Below are positions 4,212 through 44,232 of a stretch of 48,053 nucleotides of DNA, in pieces. Within the stretch, counting starts at the first letter, position 1. The number at the start of each line of letters is the position of its first letter. The stretch spans positions 1 to 48,053 of the forward strand of contig OMYR01000061.1 of the NCBI GenBank assembly GCA_900315335.1. The letters are read 5' to 3'. The notes below the pieces were generated by a model, which worked only from the letters and a program-made list of their open reading frames with translations, searched no databases and was not told the origin of the DNA. The translations under genes and the position numbers were made by a program. This DNA comes from an uncultured Bacteroidales bacterium (GTDB lineage: Bacteria > Bacteroidota > Bacteroidia > Bacteroidales > P3).

Positions 4212-5105
4212 TTATTCAATTATAGTTATCACACCTTGAAAAGTCTTTTCAAAGCCTTGATTTCTTATGACAAGATTGTAAAAATACGTTCCGTTTTCCA
4301 AATTTTGCGGACAAAATTCATTATTATAGTTACGCTTTTGATACACAACCTTATTGTTTCTATTGTAAATGACAAGCATATTATCACGATAGTCTTCTAT
4401 ATGCTGAATAGCAAAACAATCGTTGATGCCGTCACCGTTAGGAGTTATAACATTAGGTATAAGAATTTTTATTTCATATTTGGAATTTGTTCGCTGCGAA
4501 TTGTGTTGTTCCTTAGGGGAAGTCGTATTAGGATTATTAGGCATTGTCTTAGTATTTAGCACAACGGAATTAGGCGTTTGAGTTGCTATCATTTCAGGAG
4601 TAGAAACAATGTTTTGAGTAGAATAAGACATATTTGTATTTGCAGTATCTATATCAAAATCAACCGAAGGCATAACATTAGAAGTAGTTGTGGAATCGTT
4701 CTTTGCACTTTGCTGTAATTTGTTATCGGAAGCCGTATTATCAGTGTGAGTAATTATTTTATCGGTGTTTAACACTAATTTATCAGTGTGAGTGATTATT
4801 TTATTTTTATCGGTATTCGTTTTTTCGTTTGCATTATTGACTATAACAACCGCTGCAATTGTCGAAGCAACAACCACACTCGCAACAGACACAAGGGTTG
4901 CGGCTTTCATTCCTTTGACAGCGGAGGCAATTTTGTTAAACAAACCTTTGCCGCCATTAGTAGAGATATTGCCGCTTTGAGAATTTGCCGAATTGTTGCC
5001 ACCGTTCTTGAATGAAATTCTATTGTTCAATTCATTCCAAAGCGATGAATCAACCGGCATTTCGCTGTTTTGTAAATTATTCTTGAATATATCTTCTATC
5101 TTCAT
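4212..5105 (-). CDS. Anti-sigma-like membrane protein with C-terminal CHU_C (gliding-associated) domain
   Basis: The protein has 297 residues. Residues 1-32 (IEDIFKNNLQNSEMPVDSSLW) resemble the cytoplasmic N-terminus of Bacteroidota anti-sigma factors. A membrane segment lies at about residues 68-92 (TLVSVASVVVASTIAAVVIV). A Thr/Asn/Ser-rich periplasmic linker follows, then residues about 210-297 form a CHU_C-type domain (IPNVITPNGDGINDCF, LVIYNRNNKVVY, NGTYFYNLVI). It starts 4 bp after the ECF sigma gene, as expected for its antagonist. The linker contains three heptapeptides encoded by a 21-bp repeat array. CHU_C is usually at the end of T9SS-exported proteins, so its place on an inner-membrane anti-sigma factor suggests sensing of envelope or T9SS state. 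Confidence 0.75.
   Translation of the reverse strand: MKIEDIFKNNLQNSEMPVDSSLWNELNNRISFKNGGNNSANSQSGNISTNGGKGLFNKIASAVKGMKAATLVSVASVVVASTIAAVVIVNNANEKTNTDKNKIITHTDKLVLNTDKIITHTDNTASDNKLQQSAKNDSTTTSNVMPSVDFDIDTANTNMSYSTQNIVSTPEMIATQTPNSVVLNTKTMPNNPNTTSPKEQHNSQRTNSKYEIKILIPNVITPNGDGINDCFAIQHIEDYRDNMLVIYNRNNKVVYQKRNYNNEFCPQNLENGTYFYNLVIRNQGFEKTFQGVITIIE
4740..4802. repeat. 21-bp phased repeat array inside the anti-sigma gene
   Basis: Three consecutive 21-bp units (4740-4760, 4761-4781, 4782-4802) use the same words as the intergenic arrays, for example GTGTTTAACACTAATTT and CAGTGTGAGTGATTATTTT. Because 21 is a multiple of three they stay in frame on the minus strand and encode KIITHTD, KLVLNTD and KIITHTD. 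Confidence 0.9.
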
Positions 5106-10811: not shown

Positions 10812-10971
10812 CAATTTTTTATTCAACTACTGACAATTTTTACGACATAGATTAAAAAACATATTTTACAAGCAAATTATAAATTTAGTCATATTTCAAA
10901 AAGCAGAAATATGGTAATAAAAACTTTTTTAACACTATTATTTCATTGGGTATAGTAACCACGAAAATAAA

Positions 10972-11076
10972 CAGTGAAACTATTTTACTAATCATTATGA
11001 TTAATTAAATAATCATTGAGACTAATTTTTTATTTAACCACAAAAATTTAGTGGTAAATCAAAACGATATTTTTCG
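10972..11076. repeat. 21-bp phased repeat array between uvrA and the threonine aldolase gene
   Basis: Degenerate units repeat at 21-bp steps from 10972 (CAGTGAAACTATTTTACTAA, then CATTATGATTAATTAAATAA, then CATTGAGACTAATTTTTTAT). They continue into an ACCAC/GTGGT inverted word at 11037-11055 that is also used in other arrays. The rest of 10799-11077 shows no gene. Confidence 0.7.
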
Positions 11077-23257: not shown

Positions 23258-23467
23258 AAACATTTTTTCATAATCCGAACCGATTGACATAGTTTTCTTG
23301 AATTTATTTTCAATGAAAAAAATTATAGGTAGCGATAACATTATTTTTTATCGCTTCATACAAGCAGATTATTCAAAAAACAATAGTTTATTTTCTTTGA
23401 TTTTCAATATATCGAGACAAGAAAATTTTTCATTATTATCAATCGAAAAATTTTTATGTGAAAACAA

Positions 23468-23551
23468 AAAATTAGTATTTAACATCAGTAAAATAATATT
23501 AAACACTAATAAATTAATATTAAACATCAATAAAACGGTTACAAATACCAA
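23468..23551. repeat. 21-bp phased repeat array, four units
   Basis: Units start at 23468, 23489, 23510 and 23531. The first three are near-copies of each other (AATTAGTATTTAACATCAG, AAATAATATTAAACACTAA, AAATTAATATTAAACATCAA) and the fourth is diverged. It lies between the CPBP gene promoter region and the DUF2795 gene terminator. Confidence 0.9.
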
Positions 23552-25860: not shown

Positions 25861-26056
25861 ATTTTAATTATTTTTTAACAATCCAAACTGCGATATTTCC
25901 TGAAACGAAAACACTTTTCGCCCTAAAATATCCATTTTCAGTGTGCAAAGTTCCGATATTTTTTCCATTTAGCAAAATTTTATATAACATATTATGCTTA
26001 TCATCTCAACGGACGATACTTTTAACACTGTTCATAAAATTAATATCACTTATTAT

Positions 26057-26140
26057 CAAATTAGTATTTAACATTAATAAAATAGTATTTAACACTAATC
26101 AATTAATATTAAACATCGGTAAAATTATATGCGACATAAA
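26057..26140. repeat. 21-bp phased repeat array, four units, in a divergent intergenic region
   Basis: Units start at 26057, 26078, 26099 and 26120 (AAATTAGTATTTAACATTAA, AAAATAGTATTTAACACTAA, CAATTAATATTAAACATCGG, then a diverged copy). It lies between the divergent Mrp gene and the lipoprotein gene at 26427. Confidence 0.9.
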
Positions 26141-30198: not shown

Positions 30199-30261
30199 AA
30201 AATTAATGTGAGTGATTAATAAATTAGTGTTAATGATTAATAAATTAATTTCAATGAATAA
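30199..30261. repeat. 21-bp phased repeat array running into a start codon
   Basis: Units start at 30199, 30220 and 30241 (AATTAATGTGAGTGATTAA, AAATTAGTGTTAATGATTAA, AAATTAATTTCAATGAATAA). The last unit contains the ATG of the following lipoprotein gene at 30254. Confidence 0.9.
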
Positions 30262-31102
30262 AAAATTTATATTAATAATCATATCCGCCGTTGTGCTTCT
30301 TGCCGGTTGCAAACGAGAAGAGGAAAACGATTTATCACATTCCAACTTAAAAGGCAATGTCAAATCCATTCGCGAAATATCTTACCAAGCCTCAGGCAAT
30401 CAAGATACAATTATCAAAGGCGATATTGTTATGGGTAGCGATGTTTCAAATCTTTATGCCGAGTATAATGAGCAAGGCAATCAAAAGTTTGTGATAAATT
30501 ATGACAATAACGGCAATCAGTTGGATAAATGGGTGTTTAAGTACAGCGCAAAAGGCGAACAGCTTGGCGGCAATTATTATCACGCCGACAATACTCTTTT
30601 GGATTCCACGTATTATATCAAAGATGTCAAGGGGAGAATTATCGAGTACTACCATTTATTTGCCGACGGCAATTTGCGTTACAAAACATTTTATACATAC
30701 GACAACAATGGCAACATATCGGAAGAAAAAATTTTCGACCAAACAAACACTCTTTACAGCACAACGAAATACATTTACAAGAAAAATAAAGTCATAAAGG
30801 ATGAAAATTTTGACGGTAGCAATCAACTGAAATATTTCAGCACATACGCATACGATAAAAACAGCAATCTTATTCAACAAATCATCTATAACGCCGACAA
30901 ATCCATAAACACATCTGGCAATTACTCTTATAACGAACATAACGATATTATCCGACAAGTTACCAAGTTATCAAACGAAGAGGATATGACTTACACCTAC
31001 ACTTACAAGTACGACAACCACAACAATTGGACTGAAAAAATCACTTTTATCAACAACGTACCTGCCTTTATCACCACAAGACAAATAGAGTATTATAAAT
31101 AA
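30254..31102 (+). CDS. Lipoprotein with RHS/YD-like beta repeats
   Basis: The protein has 282 residues from the ATG at 30254; upstream in-frame ATGs only translate the repeat array. The lipoprotein signal ends at Cys20 (VVLLAGCK). The rest is built from about eight repeats of 20-25 residues resembling RHS/YD strands (YTYDNNGNISEEKIFD, YAYDKNSNLIQQIIYN, YKYDNHNNWTEKITF). Such proteins are common in Bacteroidales and form open beta structures at the outer membrane; function unknown. It is followed by a terminator made of repeat units. Confidence 0.75.
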   Translation: MNKKFILIIISAVVLLAGCKREEENDLSHSNLKGNVKSIREISYQASGNQDTIIKGDIVMGSDVSNLYAEYNEQGNQKFVINYDNNGNQLDKWVFKYSAKGEQLGGNYYHADNTLLDSTYYIKDVKGRIIEYYHLFADGNLRYKTFYTYDNNGNISEEKIFDQTNTLYSTTKYIYKKNKVIKDENFDGSNQLKYFSTYAYDKNSNLIQQIIYNADKSINTSGNYSYNEHNDIIRQVTKLSNEEDMTYTYTYKYDNHNNWTEKITFINNVPAFITTRQIEYYK

Positions 31103-31146
31103 ACTCGCTACGGGATATATCGTATTGGTGTCTGTATGTGAAACCA

Positions 31147-31230
31147 CAAAATTAGTGTTAAACATCATTCAAATAGTGTCCCTAATCAGTAAAATAATCA
31201 GGGACACTATTTTTGTGAAAACACACAAAT
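31147..31230. repeat. 21-bp phased repeat array after the RHS-like lipoprotein gene
   Basis: Units start at 31147, 31168, 31189 and 31210. The second and third carry the inverted words AATAGTGTCCCT and AGGGACACTATT. The 18-mer ACCACAAAATTAGTGTTA at the left end recurs, inverted, in the array near 41866. Confidence 0.85.
31172..31215 (+). terminator. Terminator hairpin built from two repeat units
   Basis: AATAGTGTCCCT (31172-31183) pairs perfectly with AGGGACACTATT (31200-31211) and is followed by TTTG on the plus strand, about 70 bp past the lipoprotein stop. Confidence 0.7.
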
Positions 31231-31252
31231 AGTGTTTAAGGAAATTTAATTT

Positions 31253-31660
31253 AACGTGAGTTCGACGAAAATTAAAACAATGCAAATTGCTTGTCTAACG
31301 AACGGTGCACATTGATGCAAAGTTTTTGCGGAAACATACAACAAACTACTATGGCACCAAGCATATTTACAATGAAATTATCAAAACACCGATGCCTTGA
31401 ATGTTCTGCCTGTGCAATATTTTTCAATTAATCATTACGGTCTCTATGATAGCCCTTTTTCTAAGAAGTTATTTGTCTGACACGCTCATTAATACTCCTT
31501 TCATAATCGTTGATTGTCTATGATAAAGACGTTTTGTATTTGTTTTGATAATTGTATATTTTTCTATCATAGCATCAAAAAACTTACAAAAGTCATCTGC
31601 CGTACAAAATAATTCTATAATTTTGGAATAGCTTTCTTAGTTCCTTATAATAAGGACATT
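31253..31660 (-). pseudogene. Decayed IS982-family transposase
   Basis: Translated on the minus strand, pieces in different frames match an IS982 transposase. An N-terminal part at about 31560-31625 reads FCTADDFCKFFDAMIEKY, followed by TNTKRLYHRQSTI. A C-terminal part at about 31290-31480 reads EKRAIIETV and AQAEHSRHRCFDNFIVNMLG. The middle of the gene is missing and several stops are present. No intact terminal repeats could be defined. The rest of 31103-31878 (31661-31878) is AT-rich with no gene that I can support. Confidence 0.8.
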
Positions 31661-31878
31661 GGGAGAATTACCCAATTTTGAGGTAATGATTTAGCAACTG
31701 TGCCATTTGCCGCGTTCTACCTTGATTTGCTTACAAAGAACTCTCTTACAAAGATATATAATTTCTCGAACAGACAATTTGACTACAATAATTATATTTG
31801 TTTATCACTCTTCATCTTTAAGTGCAAGAGCATTTATCTAACCTTATTCTCTCTATATTTCATAATCTTATCATTGTT

Positions 31879-32964
31879 TTAATAATCATTGATTATTTCA
31901 TTCATATCATCTACCATTTTAAGGACATTACCATCTTTATCTAAAACAAAAACCTTTTCTTCGACAACATAACCTCCAAAACTATTTTTGGCTCTATACT
32001 TATGTAAAGCAAAATAGGTATCATTCTCTTCGTTGTATGTTCCAAAAGCAATCCATTCAATGGCCTCATAACTATCGGGGTCTTTTAGATAATTATGTTT
32101 TAGGAAGAATTTCACTCCAACCTTTGCTTCGCTATATGTTAATTCCTGTTTGTCTCCGATATACTGTGAAGAATCCGGTTGTAACAAAAAGTAACCAGCA
32201 AATATGATGACAGCTGCTATAACAGCATACATTATCAAATCATACGGTTTGTAATATGGATTTCTAAAAACATTTCCACACGAGTAACACGTAAGTTTCC
32301 TATGTAATTCTAAAGACCCTCTAATTTTTATGCGGTTTCCGCATACTGGACAACAACAAACAGGTATTGCTTTTGCTGTATCAACAGATGGTGTCGAATT
32401 ATTCAACATGTCAGCATCTGGCAAGGATTGGTTGCGCAATGAAGAAAGCCTTTTTCGGAACTCTGAATTAACCTCATTAAAATTCCCTTGTAAATTTAGA
32501 GGAGGATTGTATACTTTGATAAGCTCTTTGTCTAAAGAGACGTATTCAGCGTTGGCATAAAAGAAAACCAACAAATTGTTTTCCATCCATTTGGATAATG
32601 CTTTTTCATCATCTTCATTGAATTTGGTTTTCCCATTTAGTGGGGCATTTGCATCACGAGGAATTAGTTGATACCCTAATAAACAACCTATAGACTTGCG
32701 AAGAGTGGAATTTCCTGCCGTTCCTTTGAAATGTTGATTATAATCCCGTGTGCGTAAACTTTTGCTACTTTTACCAACATAAATTACTTTATATTCTTCT
32801 CCTTTGTAATGAAAAAAAGTCATTTGAGGAAGCGAAGGTTCGACATTATTAGGCAAAGAAGAACCTTGCCGTAATACTATGACAGAATTACCAGGAATAT
32901 CAGGCAATATCTCTCGCTGAGAGTTCAGTGGGTCGAATAGTTCAAATTTAGTGTATGAAATCAT
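31879..32964 (-). CDS. GIY-YIG nuclease-like, zinc-ribbon, single-pass membrane protein
   Basis: The protein has 361 residues. The N-terminal 180 residues resemble a GIY-YIG nuclease: PGNSVIVLR as the first half, VIYVGKSS (Y62) as the second, R73 in LRTRDYNQHFKG, STLRKSIG, and the NPPLNLQGN end seen in related domains. Next comes a zinc ribbon (CPVCGNRI ... CYSCGN, about 205-236), a membrane helix at about 243-262 (MYAVIAAVIIFAGYFLL), and a C-terminal region with LKDPDSYEAIEWIAFG and alternating beta-strands. The full combination is not one I recognise. It is the last gene of the island and was probably in one operon with the DUF262 genes before the IS insertion. Confidence 0.7.
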   Translation of the reverse strand: MISYTKFELFDPLNSQREILPDIPGNSVIVLRQGSSLPNNVEPSLPQMTFFHYKGEEYKVIYVGKSSKSLRTRDYNQHFKGTAGNSTLRKSIGCLLGYQLIPRDANAPLNGKTKFNEDDEKALSKWMENNLLVFFYANAEYVSLDKELIKVYNPPLNLQGNFNEVNSEFRKRLSSLRNQSLPDADMLNNSTPSVDTAKAIPVCCCPVCGNRIKIRGSLELHRKLTCYSCGNVFRNPYYKPYDLIMYAVIAAVIIFAGYFLLQPDSSQYIGDKQELTYSEAKVGVKFFLKHNYLKDPDSYEAIEWIAFGTYNEENDTYFALHKYRAKNSFGGYVVEEKVFVLDKDGNVLKMVDDMNEIINDY

Positions 32965-32991
32965 ATAAATTCTTTCTTTAGTTCTACAATT

Positions 32992-34000
32992 ACCTTAATT
33001 CCGCAACACTATAGTTTAATATTATTTATAAAATCCTGAGCAACAAAAAGTTGCCCAGGATTTTGTCATGTCAGAAATTTCACTTATCTTAGTGTTGCAT
33101 TAGAAAACAGGCAAAATTCTGAATGACGTGGCAAAGGTACAAATAAAATCCGAGAAATTCACCCCTTTTGGAGGAATATTTCCAATAATGGAGCAGTTTA
33201 ACATTATTTTAGGCGAAACCATCGACTCCACGCTCGGTCTTCGCTGCAGCTCATTCGGCTATCAATACAGCGAGATTATCCGCTCTCTGATGTGCGTCTA
33301 TTTCTGTGGCGGCTCATGCGTGGAGGACATAAGCTCACATCTCATGGAGCATGTCTCACTCCACCCCCATCTCCGCACGTGCAGCGCGGACACCATCCTC
33401 AGGGCAATAAAGGAACTGACAAATGAAAACATTTCATATACATCAGATTTCGGCAAGTCCTATGACTTCAATACATCCGACACGCTCAACACATTACTTC
33501 TGAACTGTCTGTTGGCCTCAGGGCAGCTGAAAGAGGGTGAATGTTATGACGTTGACTTCGACCACCAGCTCATTGAGACGGGAAAGTATGACGCTAAGCC
33601 CACTTACAAGAAGTTTACAGGCTACAGACCTGGCGTTGCCGTTATCGGCGACATGATTGTCGGCATAGAGAACAGCGACGGCAACACCAACGTCCGCTTC
33701 CACCAGGAGGACACCCTGAGGAGATTCTTTGAGAGACTTGAGTACAAGGGGCTTACCGTCAACCGTTTCAGGGCAGACTGCGGCTCATGCATGCCTATGC
33801 CGGGGTGTTCAAGACATTCTCCGGATGATTACGGCCATTTGACGGACTGTAACAGCGTATTGCCTCAAGCCGCTTTGTGGGGTAAGGGGAAGTTATGCTC
33901 TATTTGGATGATTTTTGTGCGTCGTGCACACTTGATTGGCAAATACGTAGGCTGAAAACATGAAATCTTAACTTCATGATAACTTTTGCGGATTTTAGGT
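32992..34000 (+). mobile_element. Decayed IS1380-family insertion sequence
   Basis: About 1.0 kb with imperfect inverted ends: ACCTTAATTCCGCAACA at 32992 and, on the opposite strand at 34000, ACCTAAAATCCGCAAAA. A subterminal hairpin (33031-33044 with 33050-33064) is followed by TTTT-rich sequence. The element carries a truncated transposase and is visibly richer in G+C than its neighbours. No target duplication is apparent. It lies 27 bp before the GIY-YIG start and 3 bp after the DUF262 stop. Confidence 0.75.
33128..33955 (+). pseudogene. Truncated IS1380-family transposase
   Basis: Starting at GTG, the first about 220 residues are IS1380-like: VQIKSEKFTPFGGIFPIMEQ, the helical DNA-binding region with SSFGYQYSEIIRSLMCVYF, YDVDFDHQLIETGKYDA with the first catalytic Asp, and VNRFRADCGSC with the next. 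After about 33790 the reading frame no longer looks like transposase. Family members have about 430 residues, so roughly half the gene including the last catalytic acid is missing. It cannot be active. Confidence 0.85.
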
Positions 34001-34003
34001 GTA

Positions 34004-36166
34004 TTATAAATTTTGTTGATTTAGATAATTTATTATTTCTGTTATTTTCTTATCCATCAATATAAAAGCATCCCTTTCATCGTTTGGTGTTTCCATAAAC
34101 ATTTTAAAGCGACCATCTTTTTCTATCCATGTAAAGCCCTCTAAGTTCTGAATGCAAGCAAGATGCTTCTTTGCTTCACCAGACTTTGTATCTCTCATGA
34201 AAACGTCAATACCCATTTGCTTATGCTTTTCTCCACCATTCCAATATGCATCAATGGCAATATGTTTTTCACCTTTATCAATTTGATCTAAGAAAGCACA
34301 GGTATTATCTCCAGGCCAGAAATTAAGTTTCGACCATCCTTCAAAATTTAATGTCTGCCTTCTTGTCAAATAGTACTTATAGGCATGGATGTTGGCATGG
34401 CTACTTCTCGCGTTTGTGGCACTGATTAGATATATATGCCCATACCACCATTGTATATTCTTTTGGGCGCAATATCCAAGCAGTTCTGGAATGTGTACAA
34501 ACTCGCTATAATCTTTCTCTATTGGAAATTCTTGGATGAGTTTATCTAAGGCTGATTCATCAGAGTGGTTGTCGAAGAAATCTTTCATCTTGCCATAGTT
34601 TTCCTTATCAAGGAAGAGAACGTGCCAATCTTCTGGCTCATAAGCAAAACTCGTATTAGTATTTCCACGGAAAATGCGAGGATAATCGTGCAATCCAAAA
34701 GCGAGTAAAGCCCTGCGCACCTTATCCATCTCATTTTTCTTTAGCTTATAATCTGCAAAATAATAATCAAACTTTTCCAGATAAGATTTGAATGTATCAA
34801 TACTGAAACTTGCAAATTTGTCATCGGTCATTGACCACTGAAGAAGCGGAGATATATTTCCACTCCATACTTTTCTTGACTCTGCTTGCGCAAATGTTTT
34901 TTCAATTTCTTGTTGGACAGATGGATTACCTTCAAAAGCCTTGTATATGGTGATTTTATCTATTTCATGTGCGTCAAAAATAGTGTCACTGAGTTCTCTA
35001 TGATTAAGGATAAAGTCATAAATACTATCAGTAGACAGAGAATATACAGATAAGAAATTCAGCAGGTCAACATGATTTAGCTTGTATTTTCTTCTGGTAA
35101 TAACATTTCTGAATATATGTTCTACACGTTCTGTATCTCCTGCACGATGTACAGGTTTTAGCCCTTCGGCAATAAGAGCTTTGAGAACTCCGTTAGGACG
35201 ATATGAAATGTCATCCGACAGTAATTCCGTCCATTCATTTTCTGCAAAATCAATCATAACATCCATATACTTTTTTATTGTGGGTAGGGAAAGCAATGGA
35301 GTGCGATGTGGGATGTCTCCACGACATTCATTGCAGCTCAACATCTCATAAACAATGCGGAGAAATGAGTTTATAGCAAAATCAACCGATGCAATGCCAA
35401 GTGTACCCTTCTTAGAGTAAAACATTTCTTCCCAGTCATCCCATAGTTTGGCATAATCGGAATCATCATCAAGCTGAGTAGTTCTTTTTTGCCATTGGTC
35501 AAATAAGAAAGGCTTTATTTGCTCAGCATTTGTGAGCTTTTGTCCACGACTGTTCATCGTGATATAAAGTTCTTCGCCTTGTGATGTCTCCTGAACATTG
35601 AAATACCAGAAGCAAATATTATCAAGCACCTTATTGAATGTTATATTTTGTAGATCATCCAACTGTTCCCCGATATTTTTTATGGCATTAATCATTGAAC
35701 TGATTGTCATGTCCTTTTTATATTCATCTAAGAACCATACTTGGTTAGTGATACTTTTCCCGTCTATAACCTTCGACTTGAAGAGCATACGCATGAAAGA
35801 TTCCGTCTGTGGTCTTACATTGTAGGAGAAATACGTGGTTGGATTGGAGATGCCTATCAATTCATCAAAGTTCATGCTTTCACGCACTGACAGGACATAA
35901 AGCAACAATACTATTGTCGTAAAACGTTGCTGTCCGTCGATGATATAGTTGTCCTTATTGCAATCATTCCCATTGTTCGTGTAAGAATATAGAAAGCCAA
36001 CGTTGCATTTCTTGTCGTCCTTCAAATTATGATTCAACGAAACGAGAAAAGGCCTTAACACGTTATTACAATGTGTTCCGTTACCCCAAACGTAGTCTCG
36101 CTGGATTTCAGGAACGAAAAGTGTGAACTGAGAAAGCAGTTCCCTTATATTGTATTGTTCTATCAT
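34004..36166 (-). CDS. DUF262 (GmrS/ParB-like) protein, second of a pair
   Basis: The protein has 720 residues. The DUF262 nucleotidase signatures are present: PEIQRDYVWG (residues 19-28) and DGQQRFTTIVLL (77-88), then EELYITMNSRGQKLTNAEQIKP. In known type IV systems such as GmrSD, DUF262 hydrolyses NTP and gates DNA cleavage by a DUF1524 HNH nuclease. No DUF1524 motif is evident here; the C-terminal 300 residues (YCAQKNIQWWYGHIYLISATN and beyond) are unrecognised. Its ATG overlaps the upstream DUF262-HNH gene by 4 bp. The stop is 3 bp from the IS1380 end, so the last residues could have been altered by the insertion. Confidence 0.85.
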   Translation of the reverse strand: MIEQYNIRELLSQFTLFVPEIQRDYVWGNGTHCNNVLRPFLVSLNHNLKDDKKCNVGFLYSYTNNGNDCNKDNYIIDGQQRFTTIVLLLYVLSVRESMNFDELIGISNPTTYFSYNVRPQTESFMRMLFKSKVIDGKSITNQVWFLDEYKKDMTISSMINAIKNIGEQLDDLQNITFNKVLDNICFWYFNVQETSQGEELYITMNSRGQKLTNAEQIKPFLFDQWQKRTTQLDDDSDYAKLWDDWEEMFYSKKGTLGIASVDFAINSFLRIVYEMLSCNECRGDIPHRTPLLSLPTIKKYMDVMIDFAENEWTELLSDDISYRPNGVLKALIAEGLKPVHRAGDTERVEHIFRNVITRRKYKLNHVDLLNFLSVYSLSTDSIYDFILNHRELSDTIFDAHEIDKITIYKAFEGNPSVQQEIEKTFAQAESRKVWSGNISPLLQWSMTDDKFASFSIDTFKSYLEKFDYYFADYKLKKNEMDKVRRALLAFGLHDYPRIFRGNTNTSFAYEPEDWHVLFLDKENYGKMKDFFDNHSDESALDKLIQEFPIEKDYSEFVHIPELLGYCAQKNIQWWYGHIYLISATNARSSHANIHAYKYYLTRRQTLNFEGWSKLNFWPGDNTCAFLDQIDKGEKHIAIDAYWNGGEKHKQMGIDVFMRDTKSGEAKKHLACIQNLEGFTWIEKDGRFKMFMETPNDERDAFILMDKKITEIINYLNQQNL

Positions 36167-38148
36167 AGTTCGATGTTTAAGAAACGGTTAATATTATTAG
36201 CAATGTTTGTAGCATTCTCTCCGATATTAAGACGTGTCCACCGCCACAATTTATCTTTATCATTGAGCTTACGCTCAAATACAATCATTGTATAGGGGCG
36301 AATGTACCATTTGTTATTCATGTACTCCATGAAAATACGTTGTATCTTTTCTTGGAATGGCGCATTGCCATAACTCTTGTTTACATGCTCTATGAGCAAC
36401 GCCATGTTGCCTATAGAATGTTGTCCATATTCGTTCATCTTTATGTTGAGACGTTGTATTATTGCATCATCAAGCGTGTCATTGGGATACTGATTTAATA
36501 TATCAAGAAGTGCATTACGCATTTTTTGTTCATCAGTTTCTTTTTGAGGTTCGCTATTTACGTCATTGACGTTGTAATTGCGTGATATTTCGCTAATCCA
36601 AACAGACTTGTCACGTTCCTCTTTGCCTTCTTTCTCATTAGGTGCACATGAGCGGATATGTTCAAAGTTTTCGTTATGCTTCGTAAAGTAGGCCGCAGGT
36701 AAGCGCATTTTTCCTGCTTTCAAGTCATACACATGCAAAATTTCCGTAGGGTTGATTTCTTCCCAAAGGTCTTTGTAAATACCAATGCATATCATTACAT
36801 CCATAAGCACAAGCACATCGGTAATTCCTTGCGAATCCTTGCCGTACCATTGGGTGTTGACTTCACGAATGGATTTTACAAGATCGTCTTTATTTTCTCT
36901 TTTACAGAGCAAATTCTTAATTGTCATTATCACTTTTTGAAGATAATCATTCTTTGTGTAAGAGGTTTTCCAAAGTTGCCAAATATAGTTTATATCAATA
37001 ACTTTATCGCCTTTGCTCTCTGGTAGAATATTCTTCATATCATTCTCTTCTATCGTCTCATGTTTAAATCTGAACATAAGATAGCCTGTAAGGTGATATA
37101 ACAAAGGATCGTTAAACCACATTTGTAGTGTATGATGTAGCTGTGTTATTGTCTCATATAATTCCCAGTGATTGTCCCCTTCTTTATTATTGAAGTCTCT
37201 TCCGTTTTCAAAGAATTCTATGCCAAACTTTTCCCCTTTTCGTTTATGAATAGCATAATACAGCTTATACAAAAGTCCGATAGGATAAGTGTTATGGTCG
37301 AATGAAGAAGTCTTTAACAGGCTGTCGGAAAGGAATTGCTCAAAATACGTTTTCTGTTCTTTACCGCTCCACCACAAGTTCATTGTGTCAAGTTCCAAGG
37401 CAATTCGCATACGAAATTCCTTCACTTTAGACGAATCACTATTTTGATATTTCTCCTTTGCCGATCGAGTGATAAGTTCGGCTCTCACCAAATCTGCACC
37501 GTCCAAATCTACTTTACCACCATTCAAACCTGAAAATATTTCTTCCTCACTGACCGAATTGTCTGTTATGTTATTGACAATTAGTTTCAGTCGGTTGGTG
37601 ATGGTTTCTAATTTTATGTTGTTCTCTGGTATCTTAAACCATTCTTTTATTCCAGCAGCAACATCAAGGATGTACCATTGATCCTTGCGAATGGCAGAAT
37701 TTGGATTTATGTCATCGTTCCATATGTTACCCGTAAATACTTCATCAATAAGGAATTCTCCAGTTTCCTTACGCACATTGTACTTTATGCAGTCTGGGAC
37801 TGAGAAGAAAGAGAGTTCAGACTTTGCACTTGAATCTTCCTTTTTGAGATATGACAAGATAATATATAAAGTCGTCAAACGTTGTTGACCATCTACAACA
37901 TTCCACCCTGAGTCGTCTTTTAACGGTACAATTGTAATATTTTGGAGACAATAAAACGACTGGCTATTCTCAGTGTTTCCTTGTTCAAAATGTTTGAGGT
38001 CATCAAGCAATTTGATGACATTTTCCCTATTCCACTTATACCCTCTTTGGTATGAAGGTATCGTATAATGCTTATTGTACCCTATAGCGTAAACGAATAC
38101 ATCCTTCACGGTTCTGATAAGATCTTCATTTGAAACAGACTCGTTCAT
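36163..38148 (-). CDS. DUF262-DUF1524 (GmrSD-like) putative NTP-dependent HNH endonuclease
   Basis: The protein has 661 residues. DUF262 motifs are PSYQRGYKWNREN (31-43) and DGQQRLTTLYIIL (86-98). A later GLNGGKVDLDGADLVRAELI matches the conserved end of that domain. In the C-terminal third, NFEHIRSCAPNEKE (about residue 493) looks like the HNH/DUF1524 histidine segment, and IGNMALLIEHVNKSYGNAPF (about 579-598) is the DUF1524 Gly-Asn-Leu-Leu/Asn motif. Known relatives restrict modified phage DNA. It overlaps the second DUF262 gene by 4 bp and follows the exonuclease by 22 bp. Confidence 0.85.
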   Translation of the reverse strand: MNESVSNEDLIRTVKDVFVYAIGYNKHYTIPSYQRGYKWNRENVIKLLDDLKHFEQGNTENSQSFYCLQNITIVPLKDDSGWNVVDGQQRLTTLYIILSYLKKEDSSAKSELSFFSVPDCIKYNVRKETGEFLIDEVFTGNIWNDDINPNSAIRKDQWYILDVAAGIKEWFKIPENNIKLETITNRLKLIVNNITDNSVSEEEIFSGLNGGKVDLDGADLVRAELITRSAKEKYQNSDSSKVKEFRMRIALELDTMNLWWSGKEQKTYFEQFLSDSLLKTSSFDHNTYPIGLLYKLYYAIHKRKGEKFGIEFFENGRDFNNKEGDNHWELYETITQLHHTLQMWFNDPLLYHLTGYLMFRFKHETIEENDMKNILPESKGDKVIDINYIWQLWKTSYTKNDYLQKVIMTIKNLLCKRENKDDLVKSIREVNTQWYGKDSQGITDVLVLMDVMICIGIYKDLWEEINPTEILHVYDLKAGKMRLPAAYFTKHNENFEHIRSCAPNEKEGKEERDKSVWISEISRNYNVNDVNSEPQKETDEQKMRNALLDILNQYPNDTLDDAIIQRLNIKMNEYGQHSIGNMALLIEHVNKSYGNAPFQEKIQRIFMEYMNNKWYIRPYTMIVFERKLNDKDKLWRWTRLNIGENATNIANNINRFLNIEL

Positions 38149-38170
38149 GTCAACTCTTTAATATATTTAT

Positions 38171-38662
38171 TTATAATATCTCTCTCGCTATCCACGCACA
38201 AGCCTCTGCATCCGACAGCGCATGATGATGATTTTCCAACCGATAGCCACAGGCTGCCGCAACAGTATTAAGCTGATGGTTCTCTAATTCAGGGAAAGCA
38301 CGTCGCGAGACACAAAGCGTATCGTAAAACTCATAGTCAGGATAGTCCATCTGATAGACACGGAAGACTGCTTTAAGGCAGCTTTCATCAAAAGGCTTGT
38401 TATGAGCTACTAATGGTAAGCCTTCTATTAGTGGCTTAACTTGTTTCCATACCTCAGGAAATATCGGTGCGTTGTCGGTGTCCTCACAGCATAATCCATG
38501 CACTTGACTGCACCAAAAATTATAGTATTCTGGTTCTGGCTTGATGAGCGAATAAAATGTATCTACAATCTCGCCATCACGTACTATCACAACACCTACT
38601 GAACAAACTGATGAACGTTCGTTATTGGCTGTCTCAAAATCTATTGCTGCAAAGTCTTTCAT
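38171..38662 (-). CDS. DEDDh 3'-5' exonuclease (DnaQ-like)
   Basis: The protein has 163 residues, a single exonuclease domain. The DEDDh residues can be placed: D8 and E10 in AIDFETAN, an Asp in VAHNKPFDESCL, and His and Asp in HHHALSDAEACAW. Free-standing enzymes of this size trim DNA or RNA 3' ends. Its place between a FtsZ-like gene and the DUF262-HNH gene, all on the same strand with short gaps, suggests that it works on nucleic acid ends produced by the nuclease. Confidence 0.88.
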   Translation of the reverse strand: MKDFAAIDFETANNERSSVCSVGVVIVRDGEIVDTFYSLIKPEPEYYNFWCSQVHGLCCEDTDNAPIFPEVWKQVKPLIEGLPLVAHNKPFDESCLKAVFRVYQMDYPDYEFYDTLCVSRRAFPELENHQLNTVAAACGYRLENHHHALSDAEACAWIAREIL

Positions 38663-38734
38663 AATAACACCGAAATTCAGACAATAATAATTTTAATTCT
38701 TCCATTAAGATATACAAACTACCATTTTGATTCT

Positions 38735-39427
38735 TCAAAGGTCAAATACCTGAACTCTGTCTGCCTCCGTAATTCCTTTAGCGAAGCATCCTCGTATAAA
38801 GAAATATTCATTGGAGTAGTCTTGATATTCTATCGGCAACAGACCGTTTCTGGACGAACTTAATGATAATGAAAGGTCCTGAATCGAATGATTTTCAAGA
38901 AACGATTTCATTACCTCTACAAGCGGTTTGTTCATATCGAGGAGTGTAAATCCTTTTATATTCTGAATGCTTTCATTACATTGTAACACTATGAGGTCAG
39001 ATGCAACAGCCAATTTCCTTTTTGCCTTTGCCGCACGCATATTCGCCAATTTCCCCTCTGATGTCATAGGCAAACTACCAAGTGTACACACGGTCTTTCC
39101 CTTTAGTTTCTCCGCCATAGCAATGAGTGGGGCATATTTGGAGCCAGTCATTCCTCCAAGCGTTGAGCAAATAATCACCTCCTCTACATCTGGCGATATT
39201 CTACTTGTTACCTCGTCAACAGAATTGATATATTTTACTTTAATTTTATCATAAGGATATTTCTCTAAAAGCACTGCTTCGGCAGACATTTTCTTTGCGT
39301 TGGACTTTAGTTGGCTCTCATCAGTGTCGCAGATGATAATTTGTGAATCAGGAAACAAACCGGCATTGATAATGTCAATTGCTATATTATATCCCCTGCT
39401 GCCAACGGTTATAATTGTTCTTTTCAT
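38735..39427 (-). CDS. Short FtsZ/tubulin-like GTPase-domain protein
   Basis: The protein has 230 residues. The order of motifs follows the FtsZ N-terminal domain: VGSRGYNIAIDIINAG (8-23, like the GGGGGNAVNRMIxxG loop), ICDTDESQL (32-40, like NTDAQAL), ICSTLGGMTGSKYAPLIA (86-103, like the tubulin signature GGGTGTG), TVCTLGSLPMTSEGKLANMR, and DLIVLQCNES. The T7 synergy loop NxDxxD is only partly kept (LLDMNKPL), and there is no C-terminal tail. It is much shorter than FtsZ and is not the cell-division protein. Whether it polymerises or hydrolyses GTP is unknown. It begins 24 bp after the WYL relic, in operon with the exonuclease. Confidence 0.7.
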   Translation of the reverse strand: MKRTIITVGSRGYNIAIDIINAGLFPDSQIIICDTDESQLKSNAKKMSAEAVLLEKYPYDKIKVKYINSVDEVTSRISPDVEEVIICSTLGGMTGSKYAPLIAMAEKLKGKTVCTLGSLPMTSEGKLANMRAAKAKRKLAVASDLIVLQCNESIQNIKGFTLLDMNKPLVEVMKSFLENHSIQDLSLSLSSSRNGLLPIEYQDYSNEYFFIRGCFAKGITEADRVQVFDL

Positions 39428-39451
39428 ATTTTATAGAGTTTAGTATAATGT

Positions 39452-39541
39452 TTACTCTTGATATTTCTTCCACATCCTTTCTATCTTCCCTGCCATTTCC
39501 TTACGCAGCCACAGCGGCTCCAATACCTCCACGTCTCTTTG
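39452..39541 (-). pseudogene. C-terminal relic of a WYL-domain regulator
   Basis: The minus strand encodes a fragment of about 30 residues, RDVEVLEPLWLRKEMAGKI and so on to WKKYQE followed by TAA at 39452-39454. This matches the end of WYL-domain transcription regulators (vEVLEPxxLRxEI). An in-frame TAA stands immediately upstream, where the sequence switches to the end of the YwqK gene at 39557. The rest of the regulator gene is gone, marking a deletion junction at about 39545-39556. Confidence 0.65.
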
Positions 39542-39556
39542 AGAACTATCTACTTA

Positions 39557-40579
39557 TTATTTTTCAAAGTCGGTTCTAAACATGGATTCAATAACGCCTT
39601 GGGCGTCTTTATCTGCTATGATTTTATAACCGAAATCTATCTTGGTTTTTACACTTCCGTCCTCATTGAAACCTTCAATAACAGATGTATTCAAATACAA
39701 TTCGCTTTTCTCGTTAATACGTACAAAATCATTAACAGACAATAATTTTACTATTCCTCCTATGCTGTTAAAGACATTGTATCTGTCGCCATTGGAAAGC
39801 ACTATCTGACTTTGTTTTCCCGCTTGACGAACCAATAAAATATCTTTTTGCGGAATCTCTTTCACACCTTGTTGTAAGTTAAAACGAATGGCATCGCCCA
39901 AAAACTTATCATCCTTATAAAACAACTTCTGAACACATGTTCCTTGCATATCATAAACTTCCCAAGTGCCTTGTTTGTTACCTTTTTCATAGCGACCCTT
40001 GATTTTCAATGTGCCGTCGGGATAATATTCCATATAATCGCCGTCCAAAACATTATTATTATAAAAAGTTTTGTAATATCCCTCCTCGTAAAGTGAGCAG
40101 AAATATTCGCCTTGTTTAACACCACGCTTGTAGGTTGTGGCTTCGATAACGTCTTTACCACTCGTCTCCCATTTTTTCTCAATGCCGTCTTTTACATTGT
40201 TGATATAATTTTCTTCGCTAATCTTCTTGCCTTTTTCGGTGTAATATTCCCAAAGTCCTTCTTTCTTTTTATCAACGTAATTGCCCTTTGCCTTTACACT
40301 GCCATTGGGATAAATAAATTGAGAATAAACCTTACGACCTTTATCGGTGTAATAGTTTTTCAGTTCAATCTTACCATTTCTGTCATAATAATAAAAAGTA
40401 TCCATAGGATAGTCGTCCTTGAACTGTCCTTTATAAACGATGCGATTATTCTTATCTTTCTTTATCCATTCGCCTTGTTTCTTACCGTTTTTATCCGTTT
40501 GGTTTTGTGCATTCACTGTTACTATCGAAGTGCATAATGCAACTCCCCAAACCAAACCTGTTTTCAAAATATTATTCAT
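39557..40579 (-). CDS. YwqK/MORN-repeat secreted protein
   Basis: The protein has 340 residues with a signal peptide ending TVNAQ near residue 25. It contains at least seven YwqK/MORN-like strand pairs (NGKKQGEWIKKDKNNRIVYK, KKKEGLWEYYTEKGKKI, DGDYMEYYPDGTLKIKGRY, KGNKQGTWEVYDMQGTC). The last 110 residues have a different, non-repetitive composition. The name toxin-antitoxin YwqK antitoxin is often given to such repeats, but nothing here supports a toxin-antitoxin role. Its 3' end now abuts the truncated WYL fragment, so its transcript may read into the island operon. Confidence 0.75.
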   Translation of the reverse strand: MNNILKTGLVWGVALCTSIVTVNAQNQTDKNGKKQGEWIKKDKNNRIVYKGQFKDDYPMDTFYYYDRNGKIELKNYYTDKGRKVYSQFIYPNGSVKAKGNYVDKKKEGLWEYYTEKGKKISEENYINNVKDGIEKKWETSGKDVIEATTYKRGVKQGEYFCSLYEEGYYKTFYNNNVLDGDYMEYYPDGTLKIKGRYEKGNKQGTWEVYDMQGTCVQKLFYKDDKFLGDAIRFNLQQGVKEIPQKDILLVRQAGKQSQIVLSNGDRYNVFNSIGGIVKLLSVNDFVRINEKSELYLNTSVIEGFNEDGSVKTKIDFGYKIIADKDAQGVIESMFRTDFEK

Positions 40580-40588
40580 ATATATAAA

Positions 40589-41155
40589 TTATTTATTGTT
40601 ATCTTTCAAAAAATTCGCAAAGTCAATCAGACTATCAAAACTATAATCTATCAAATCCCTATCAATTTCCTCTTCCGTCTTGTTATCAATAAAAACGGTA
40701 GTCATACCACAACGTTTTCCAAAAAGCATATCTCCCATTGCATCTCCCACCATTATGCTATTGGAAAATACTATCTCGGGATAATCTTTTGCAGCCTTGA
40801 AAGCCATTCCTACATTGGGCTTACGGTCCGGTGAAGACACGGTTTCCAAATCAGGACAATGATAAATCTTATCTATTCTTCCACCCTCAGAGTGTATTTC
40901 CTGTAACATCTTTTCACTCAAAATAGAAAAATCCTCCTCACTCATCAACCCCTTTCCGATACCTTGCTGATTGGTTACAACAAAGATACGTGCAAACAAT
41001 GAATTGAAAATCCTCAATGCTTCTTTAACGCCACTGATAAACTCAAATTCTTCGTAAGAAAGTATATATCCGCCAATCTTACGAACATTGATAACTCCGT
41101 CTCTATCCAAGAACAAAGATGTTTGAGCATTAATCGTTATATTATCGGTTTTCAT
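40589..41155 (-). CDS. gmhB: D-glycero-D-manno-heptose-1,7-bisphosphate phosphatase-like HAD hydrolase
   Basis: From the ATG at 41155 (MKTDNI) the protein has 188 residues. HAD motif I is SLFLDRDGVIN, the HisB/GmhB type; motif II is IFVVTNQQGIGKG; the C-terminal region has MVGDAMGDMLFGKRCGM (motif IV). The zinc-ligand region has CPDLETVSSPDRKPNVGM, with fewer cysteines and histidines than classical GmhB. It would remove the 1-phosphate in ADP-heptose synthesis. The start overlaps the end of gmhA by 14 bp, supporting a heptose role. Confidence 0.82.
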   Translation of the reverse strand: MKTDNITINAQTSLFLDRDGVINVRKIGGYILSYEEFEFISGVKEALRIFNSLFARIFVVTNQQGIGKGLMSEEDFSILSEKMLQEIHSEGGRIDKIYHCPDLETVSSPDRKPNVGMAFKAAKDYPEIVFSNSIMVGDAMGDMLFGKRCGMTTVFIDNKTEEEIDRDLIDYSFDSLIDFANFLKDNNK

Positions 41156-41723: not shown

Positions 41724-41817
41724 AATCATTAGATTTTTAATTTTCTTATTATATATTAATAGCAAAAACCTTTTTAGCTAAATCGCAAAAATAATCAAAG
41801 TAATCGCTTTACTGATG

Positions 41818-41901
41818 TTTAACACTATTTTGCTAATGTTTAATACTATTTTTCTAATCATTAACACTAATTTTGTGGTATCACATCAAAATTTTGCGGT
41901 A
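41818..41901. repeat. 21-bp phased repeat array, four units, upstream of gmhA
   Basis: Units start at 41818, 41839, 41860 and 41881 (TTAACACTATTTTGCTAATG, TTAATACTATTTTTCTAATC, TTAACACTAATTTTGTGGTA, CACATCAAAATTTTGCGGTA). It lies between the glycosyltransferase stop and the gmhA start. Confidence 0.92.
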
Positions 41902-44129: not shown

Positions 44130-44169
44130 TACTTATTTACTTTCTACAATGTCAATAACTGTTTTTTTA

Positions 44170-44232
44170 ATCAGTCACACCAATAAAATAATCACTCACA
44201 TTAATAAATTAGTTATTGACACTATTTTTCAA
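44170..44232. repeat. 21-bp phased repeat array upstream of the DUF4199 pair
   Basis: Three units start at 44170, 44191 and 44212 (TCAGTCACACCAATAAAATA, TCACTCACATTAATAAATTA, TTATTGACACTATTTTTCAA). The array fills the gap to the DUF4838 gene, which ends at 44236. Confidence 0.88.

Follow-up and report, generated by a model that had tools for sequence, protein, structure and literature searches.

An accessory island in the genome of an uncultured Bacteroidales bacterium carries a cassette of four intact co-directional genes and the stub of a WYL-domain regulator. The stretch analysed, referred to here as the window, comprises 48,053 nucleotides (assembly GCA_900315335.1, contig OMYR01000061.1), and the four genes encode a short FtsZ-like protein, a DEDDh exonuclease and two DUF262 proteins, A and B. 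Judging from sequence, A and B probably form a type IV modification-dependent restriction system of the GrwAB/TgvAB kind that works with the exonuclease and was once controlled by the WYL protein, and the FtsZ-like protein is probably an optional accessory. The recurrent truncated FtsZ companion appears to be undescribed in the literature searched; the restriction core belongs to a known kind. An earlier note, made from the letters alone, had described a candidate six-gene defence operon that matched no recognised system. The operon is smaller than proposed, and the claim of novelty holds for the FtsZ-like part only, since the DUF262 pair has the GrwAB/TgvAB layout.

Results

BLASTN comparison with a relative (G002; G and L numbers denote genomes and loci) placed the island at 31104..39543 (8,440 bp). 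Identity to G002, 95-96% at the DNA level in the flanks, stops at 31103 and restarts at 39544, so that G002 lacks the island. In a congener (L196), which is more distant than G002, the backbone genes flanking the island adjoin, 164 bp apart. The reading of this region as an accessory island was therefore correct. The order of transcription on the minus strand is WYL stub, FtsZ-like gene, exonuclease, DUF262-A and DUF262-B, with an IS1380 relic and a GIY-YIG gene beyond. The reading frames of the FtsZ-like protein, the exonuclease and both DUF262 proteins are all open. The cassette is four intact genes plus a regulator stub and not six genes: the GIY-YIG gene is separate, the WYL gene is a remnant, and the FtsZ-like gene is optional and absent from an intact version in Prevotella. 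The assignments of an FtsZ-like GTPase (PF00091), a DEDDh exonuclease (PF00929), two DUF262 proteins (PF03235) with a 4-bp overlap and a GIY-YIG protein (PF20815) were all confirmed.

That intact version lies on the Prevotella sp. E2-28 plasmid NZ_CP091789 and has the order WYL-exonuclease-A-B, its A and B being 34% and 35% identical to ours over the aligned parts. No GIY-YIG gene stands beside that cassette, and no FtsZ-like match was found anywhere on the record. In the window, the WYL gene is reduced to a C-terminal stub (39452..39543, minus strand). Its 27 alignable codons, the last of the gene, are 78% identical over 27 residues to the C-terminus of the intact plasmid protein, which bears out its description as a WYL relic. 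The Prevotella homologue has both a WYL and a WCX domain; the window stub does not extend to this pair of domains.

The exonuclease (163 amino acids, 38171..38662, minus strand) matches PF00929 (2.5e-22) and the PADLOC DEDDh model (3.2e-25). The motifs DxE, D and HxxxxD are present as D8, E10, D92, H146 and D151, which were invariant in 5/5 aligned sequences. It is 79% identical over 147 residues to the Prevotella plasmid homologue and 82-90% identical to the best 80 genome loci. Against the window gene, the median nonsynonymous divergence (dN) was 0.10 with synonymous sites saturated, in 82 ungapped comparisons of which at least one was out of register. These comparisons indicate that the exonuclease is old and constrained. 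Homologues of DUF262-A and DUF262-B are only 16-39% identical to the window proteins. The conservation of the one against the divergence of the others suggests a constant part made up of exonuclease and WYL, and a rapidly changing one made up of A and B.

DUF262-A (661 amino acids, 36163..38148, minus strand) combines a GmrSD_N match (PF03235, 1.5e-26) with a C-terminal HNH/DUF1524-type region. DUF262-B (720 amino acids, 34004..36166, minus strand) also matches GmrSD_N (PF03235, 4.7e-22), and its C-terminal part is unrecognised. The two genes overlap by 4 bp at 36163-36166. Among aligned proteins GmrSD_N was found in 17/17 A and 9/9 B homologues, and GmrSD_C (PF07510) in 15/17 (E 0.05) and 1/9, respectively. 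A carries Q34 R35, D86-R90 (DGQQR) and F205/N209 (FxxxN). Over its 17 homologues, DGQQR 86-90 and N590 are invariant, and E496, H497 and N581 nearly so; the A protein of L209 lacks the nuclease EH. In B, QR 22-23 and DGQQR 77-81 are invariant over nine homologues, and N205 is accompanied by Y in place of F. The family alignment supports a DUF1524 His-Me nuclease as the predicted activity of the A partner. Structure prediction for DUF262-B and for the FtsZ-like protein gave models too weak to use (predicted local distance difference test, pLDDT, 46.3 and 43.9).

One genome per species was scanned for close relatives of the exonuclease, and the best 80 of at least 550 confirmed places were taken. 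In the 72 loci with at least 2.5 kb of upstream sequence, a WYL gene lies directly upstream of the exonuclease in 23 and with 0.7-2.6 kb between in a further 12. A tandem DUF262 pair on the same strand follows the exonuclease in 8/80 loci, and all eight have WYL or WYL fragments upstream. A broader DUF262 model found DUF262 gene(s) in 12/80, always downstream of an exonuclease and on its strand. We also hand-picked 17 WYL-exonuclease loci and took one sizeable gene downstream of the exonuclease in each, not always the first. In 15 of the 17, this gene was of a nuclease or restriction-helicase family: a single GmrSD (L087, L127, L131, L152), McrBC (L088, L128; also seen in L280), a PD-(D/E)XK nuclease (L078, L093, L097, L103, L124, L130), a type III restriction enzyme (L122), a helicase of SNF2/phospholipase D (PLD) type (L135) or a giant protein with a CoiA-nuclease-like match (L095). 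The gene in L108 matched no family, and that in L092 was a housekeeping gene. WYL and exonuclease recur as a pair, and the nucleases that follow them are exchangeable, several belonging to modification-dependent families. The slot between the two holds different genes elsewhere, including a recurrent 350-aa family and a 190-aa family, and the window's FtsZ-like gene sits in this same slot.

Two further observations concern these islands. In L280 (L280:7158-13736), McrB-McrC lies between two FtsZ-like genes behind WYL-exonuclease, in the position that the DUF262 pair takes in L281, a locus from the same genus; the cargo has been swapped. A 170-aa PLD-type nuclease (PF13091; PADLOC DrmC models) recurs in the same islands (L283:11337-11849; by eye in L097, L115, L121 and others).

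The short FtsZ-like protein (230 amino acids, 38735..39427, minus strand; PF00091 2e-10, 41.7 bits vs a cut-off of 33) consists of the GTPase-domain half only. Its T4 loop is altered (LGGMTGSK, not GGGTGTG), the T7 loop and C-terminal domain are missing, and it scores 30 bits against the model for FtsZ proper (TIGR00065, cut-off 295). In an alignment of 14 short or tandem forms with four canonical FtsZ proteins, 14/14 keep the GTPase half and 0/14 have a T7 loop or a normal C-terminal domain; an INVDFADV-like T7 loop is present in 4/4 canonical proteins. Searches of plasmids, phages, viral contigs and 190 genomes of the same family found no close relative of the window protein. Combined into a profile with five other short forms, to which it is 21-25% identical, it detected further short forms beside the normal ftsZ among 393 genomes of the same order; a single family of 20 genomes yielded additional ones. 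The closest relative of the window protein among the fetched loci is the first half of a fused double form (27-30% over ~160 residues). We considered an origin of the gene by recent copying of the host ftsZ and rejected it, given the diversity of the short forms and the presence of a 634-codon ftsZ frame in another part of the genome (G000:C19). The fused double forms, of ~380-400 aa, are at L250:7087-8283, L280:5438-6574 and L281:5834-6964, with a fragment at L115:11488-11832. Their first half is GTPase-like and their second half, by eye, a degenerate copy, and they occur in islands with WYL and exonuclease and either DUF262 pairs or McrBC.

A DUF262, WYL or exonuclease gene lies within 1.5 kb of a short or tandem FtsZ gene in 8/14 loci, the window included, which amounts to 7/11 islands linked. 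At the same distance, none was found at 46 canonical ftsZ loci or at 30 HsdM loci, the restriction-gene control; the broader DUF262 model gave the same control numbers. The earlier note had tied the FtsZ-like and exonuclease genes to DUF262 genes, and this excess over both controls upholds the link, short of the unlinked islands considered below. Homologues scattered over unrelated settings and lacking any conserved tie to DUF262 genes, which the note had named as its refutation, are not the picture obtained. Searches started from FtsZ found a DUF262 pair, exonuclease or WYL gene within ~11 kb in nine of 15 resolved islands (G000, G269, G339, G416, G460, G556, G593, G597, G598). Five of these nine come from one genus, and linkage counted by genus is 4/8. 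Where the sole match in a genome was a short frame (e.g. G325, G247, G345), it was counted as a cut normal ftsZ and left out, and G464, cut by contig ends, stands outside the 15 islands. Locus L208 was found while DUF262 pairs were inspected, and L115 and L166 while exonuclease loci were inspected.

Gene order varies around a common theme. Four islands of one genus begin with WYL-exo-FtsZ, where exo denotes the exonuclease and FtsZx2 the double form: L281 continues with A-B-FtsZx2, L250 with a 250-aa gene, FtsZx2 and A-B, and L280 with an ADP-ribosylglycohydrolase, a 196-aa gene, McrB-McrC and FtsZx2, and L249 has no DUF262 gene in its 11 kb. The order is A-B-FtsZ in L208, FtsZ-ATPase-(113 aa)-A-B in L246, and WYL-exo-A-B followed by six more genes and then FtsZ in L283+L247. 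The FtsZ-like gene is linked to this type of island rather than to the DUF262 pair alone.

Other neighbours of the short FtsZ-like genes were recorded. Proteins weakly resembling uracil-DNA glycosylase adjoin them at L031:2175-2981, L115:12074-12859 and L282:7413-8114, with PF03167 matches below the cut-off in L031 (E 0.011) and L282 (E 0.016); at L166:6880-7536 and L250:8647-9399, the likeness is by eye only, with no profile match. At L247:4546-10552, the short FtsZ-like gene stands between a MoxR-type AAA gene (bpMoxR) and a second AAA gene; a different FtsZ-like family had earlier been connected with von Willebrand factor A (vWA) operons. The surroundings of short FtsZ-like genes at L033:3331-8088 and L032:336-6180 include Fic-like and DUF1016-like neighbours and a region with a TerB-like gene (names by eye), and these fetched stretches contain no WYL, exonuclease or DUF262 gene.

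Discussion

Our analysis supports the earlier view of a restriction-type accessory island in which the DUF262 pair is likely the DNA-cutting part. GrwAB and TgvAB are two-protein, GmrSD-like systems of modification-dependent restriction in which both partners are needed (PMC12137116, PMC12409362). GrwA joins DUF262 to DUF1524, and GrwB joins DUF262 to further unknown domains (PMC12137116). By these described features the window pair is alike: the nuclease partner comes first and the second partner after it, DUF262 is N-terminal in both, and the His-Me/DUF1524 region is confined to the first. The QR, DGQQR and FxxxN motifs are shared, as is an N-x8-N in the nuclease region, where N581/N590 of A are spaced as N521/N530 of GrwA. 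Unlike GrwAB as described there, the window pair is preceded by an exonuclease and a WYL stub and has a short FtsZ-like gene alongside. TgvAB likewise comprises two DUF262 proteins, one with DUF1524, inside an island; its nuclease partner, however, is the second named protein, TgvB, and the available text describes no exonuclease or FtsZ-like gene there (PMC12409362). A DUF262-DUF1524 enzyme and a WYL regulator also share an island in the case of BrxU and BrxR of bacteriophage exclusion (BREX) islands, but BrxU is described as a single-protein enzyme and BREX genes are present (PMC8565348). Going by layout and gene order, the window pair is most economically a member of the emerging two-protein GmrSD-like type IV kind.

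We infer the biochemical steps of the system from gene content, order, conservation and associations. A and B would assemble into a complex gated by nucleoside triphosphate (NTP), their DUF262 domains binding and hydrolysing NTP and recognising modified DNA of an invader such as a phage. The His-Me (HNH) region of A would then cut the modified DNA, and the exonuclease would degrade the 3' ends left by this cut. NTP-gated cleavage with trimming by the exonuclease, as the earlier note had suggested, is in this sense a reasonable mechanism. In intact relatives, expression would be turned on by the WYL protein, which may sense single-stranded DNA; binding of such DNA is on record for some WYL proteins (PMC12409362) and would be compatible with induction by cut DNA. 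For the window copy, transcription would have to rely on read-through from the upstream gene or on an unrecognised promoter. As the short FtsZ-like protein keeps the nucleotide-binding half and has lost the T7 loop and the C-terminal domain, a normal filament seems less likely than action on or instead of host FtsZ, either as a hold on division or as a decoy for phage FtsZ inhibitors.

Several observations weigh against this interpretation. The regulator is lost, and a search of the minus strand from 38000 to 40640 found no -33/-7 promoter pattern, so the genes are possibly unexpressed or in decay in the window. The GmrSD_C/DUF1524 match of window A (PF07510, 0.0076) is below the Pfam cut-off (16.6 vs 23 bits), and so the DUF1524 assignment of the earlier note stands at the level of the family, with its conserved EH, N and N, and not for the window protein alone. 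No WYL gene was found inside 3 kb upstream in 37 of the 72 exonuclease loci. The exonuclease-DUF262 link is not obligatory either: in a set of 12 tandem DUF262 pairs chosen by eye among the matches listed (149 genomes; several end at contig ends), an exonuclease is adjacent in 2/12 and a WYL gene lies within 2.5 kb in 3/12. The FtsZ-like gene is absent from 79/80 exonuclease stretches, the sole instance being the L115 fragment, and from 11/12 DUF262-pair stretches; the L101 genome has one at a distance of 11.7 kb past the exonuclease, outside the stretch fetched for that locus. Finally, six of the 15 resolved short FtsZ islands (G372, G245, G354, G051, G025, G044) have no partners in stretches reaching up to 5.5-16 kb a side, those of G051 and G245 ending at contig ends.

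The role of the FtsZ-like protein is where the explanations diverge most. It may have no role with the DUF262 pair at all, if modules are exchanged around WYL and the exonuclease and the FtsZ-, uracil-DNA glycosylase- and PLD-like and ADP-ribosylglycohydrolase genes merely travel with them. We regard this mosaic hitch-hiking as a real possibility, though short of probable, and as at least as likely as either of the two active roles considered below. Order and accompanying nuclease vary among the islands that share these extra modules (L115, L166, L247, L250, L280, L281), McrBC replaces A-B between L281 and L280, L249 has the FtsZ-like gene and no DUF262, and the old, conserved exonuclease contrasts with A and B. 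On the other hand, chance company does not readily account for an order WYL-exo-FtsZ kept in the four islands of one genus, or for HsdM loci showing no such neighbours (0/30). Alternatively, an N-terminal half of FtsZ may cap or poison host filaments while DNA is being cut, as a SulA-like checkpoint or a growth-arrest effector. Isolated halves of FtsZ block assembly, the T7 loop is absent from every short or tandem form aligned while the GTPase half is kept, and the partners of these forms are DNA-cutting systems. The sequences are divergent, however, and one form is a tandem (L250, L280, L281); we consider a division brake rather unlikely.

A short FtsZ might instead mimic host FtsZ and bind phage FtsZ blockers such as T7 Gp0.4 and lambda Kil, either protecting the divisome or triggering the nucleases. 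FtsZ is a common target of phages, and, as the available text reports, the defence protein CapRel-Ebc becomes active in response to a complex between FtsZ and its phage inhibitor (PMC13423816). This ties FtsZ to anti-phage immunity, as our islands may do, but there it is the host's own FtsZ that acts with a fused toxin-antitoxin protein, and that text mentions no FtsZ-like gene in the locus. It also places the inhibitor on the synergy-loop surface of FtsZ (PMC13423816). Diversity and repeated occurrence next to nuclease genes are what a bait in an arms race would show, and the short forms have both; the window form, however, so far diverged from the other five and with its T4 loop altered, would be a poor mimic. 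The synergy-loop surface is in the C-terminal half of FtsZ, which the short forms lack, and this too counts against a decoy; we consider it unlikely. Divergent FtsZ relatives outside cell division have been described before as FtsZl1 and FtsZl2 (PMC2875224). According to the available descriptions, the T6-H7 region of FtsZl1 is not alignable and the protein has a coiled-coil domain and occurs in vWA operons, and FtsZl2 has a 300-aa C-terminal region, whereas the short forms here are of 200-250 aa. No vWA match was found among the island's proteins. In the titles and abstract openings searched, we found no description of a truncated FtsZ companion of WYL/exonuclease/DUF262 islands.

For the restriction core itself, it is improbable that the pair belongs to another DUF262 defence type (e.g. 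SspE-like) or is a decayed, inactive copy. PADLOC matches to SspE, HEC and Orf5 models fit the former, with their best stretches in the shared N-terminal part, and the lost regulator fits the latter. The pairing, order and asymmetric nuclease domain nevertheless follow GrwAB, and all four genes are open. A restriction pair of the GrwAB/TgvAB kind, with its exonuclease, therefore remains our preferred reading.

Two-protein GmrSD-like restriction would in this way be tied to a conserved regulator-exonuclease pair with interchangeable nucleases, an arrangement that would account for the exchange of restriction modules among related bacteria. The recurrence of truncated FtsZ relatives suggests that this immunity involves cell division or is contested there. 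FtsZ is a known point of attack for phages; a mimic of it carried on an island would, if true, be a new kind of part. The most general proposal, in which a WYL-exonuclease chassis of Bacteroidales swaps its nuclease cargo and a distinct class of truncated FtsZ relatives, unable to form normal filaments, is a working part of it as either a bait for phage division inhibitors or a division brake, is tentative, and taken whole it is rather unlikely.

Other features of the island and its surroundings

The GIY-YIG protein (31879..32964, minus strand; PF20815 1.8e-36) lies in the island, outside the cassette, and its zinc-ribbon match is weak (PF21344 0.024, under the cut-off). We rejected it as a member of the gene row because 1 kb with a plus-strand IS1380 relic intervenes and no homologue was found at E 1e-3 in the other fetched loci. 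This relic of an IS1380-family transposase (33128..33955, plus strand) covers profile positions 1-219 of 419 of NF033539 (4e-45; 154 bits vs a cut-off of 180), and is in keeping with the insertion sequence remnant that the earlier note had placed inside the island. Both island flanks occur in G002 ~20 kb apart, beside other genes and differently arranged (L197 and L198 vs window 31103/39544), which points to a chromosomal rearrangement breakpoint at or near the insertion site. The note had also remarked that the 21-bp arrays of the backbone are missing from the island. This was confirmed: no tandem array scoring at least 50 was found within 31253-39541, and seven arrays with a 21-bp period lie in the backbone, at 4738-4804, 10965-11027, 23465-23535, 26052-26116, 30200-30267, 41808-41875 and 44168-44208.

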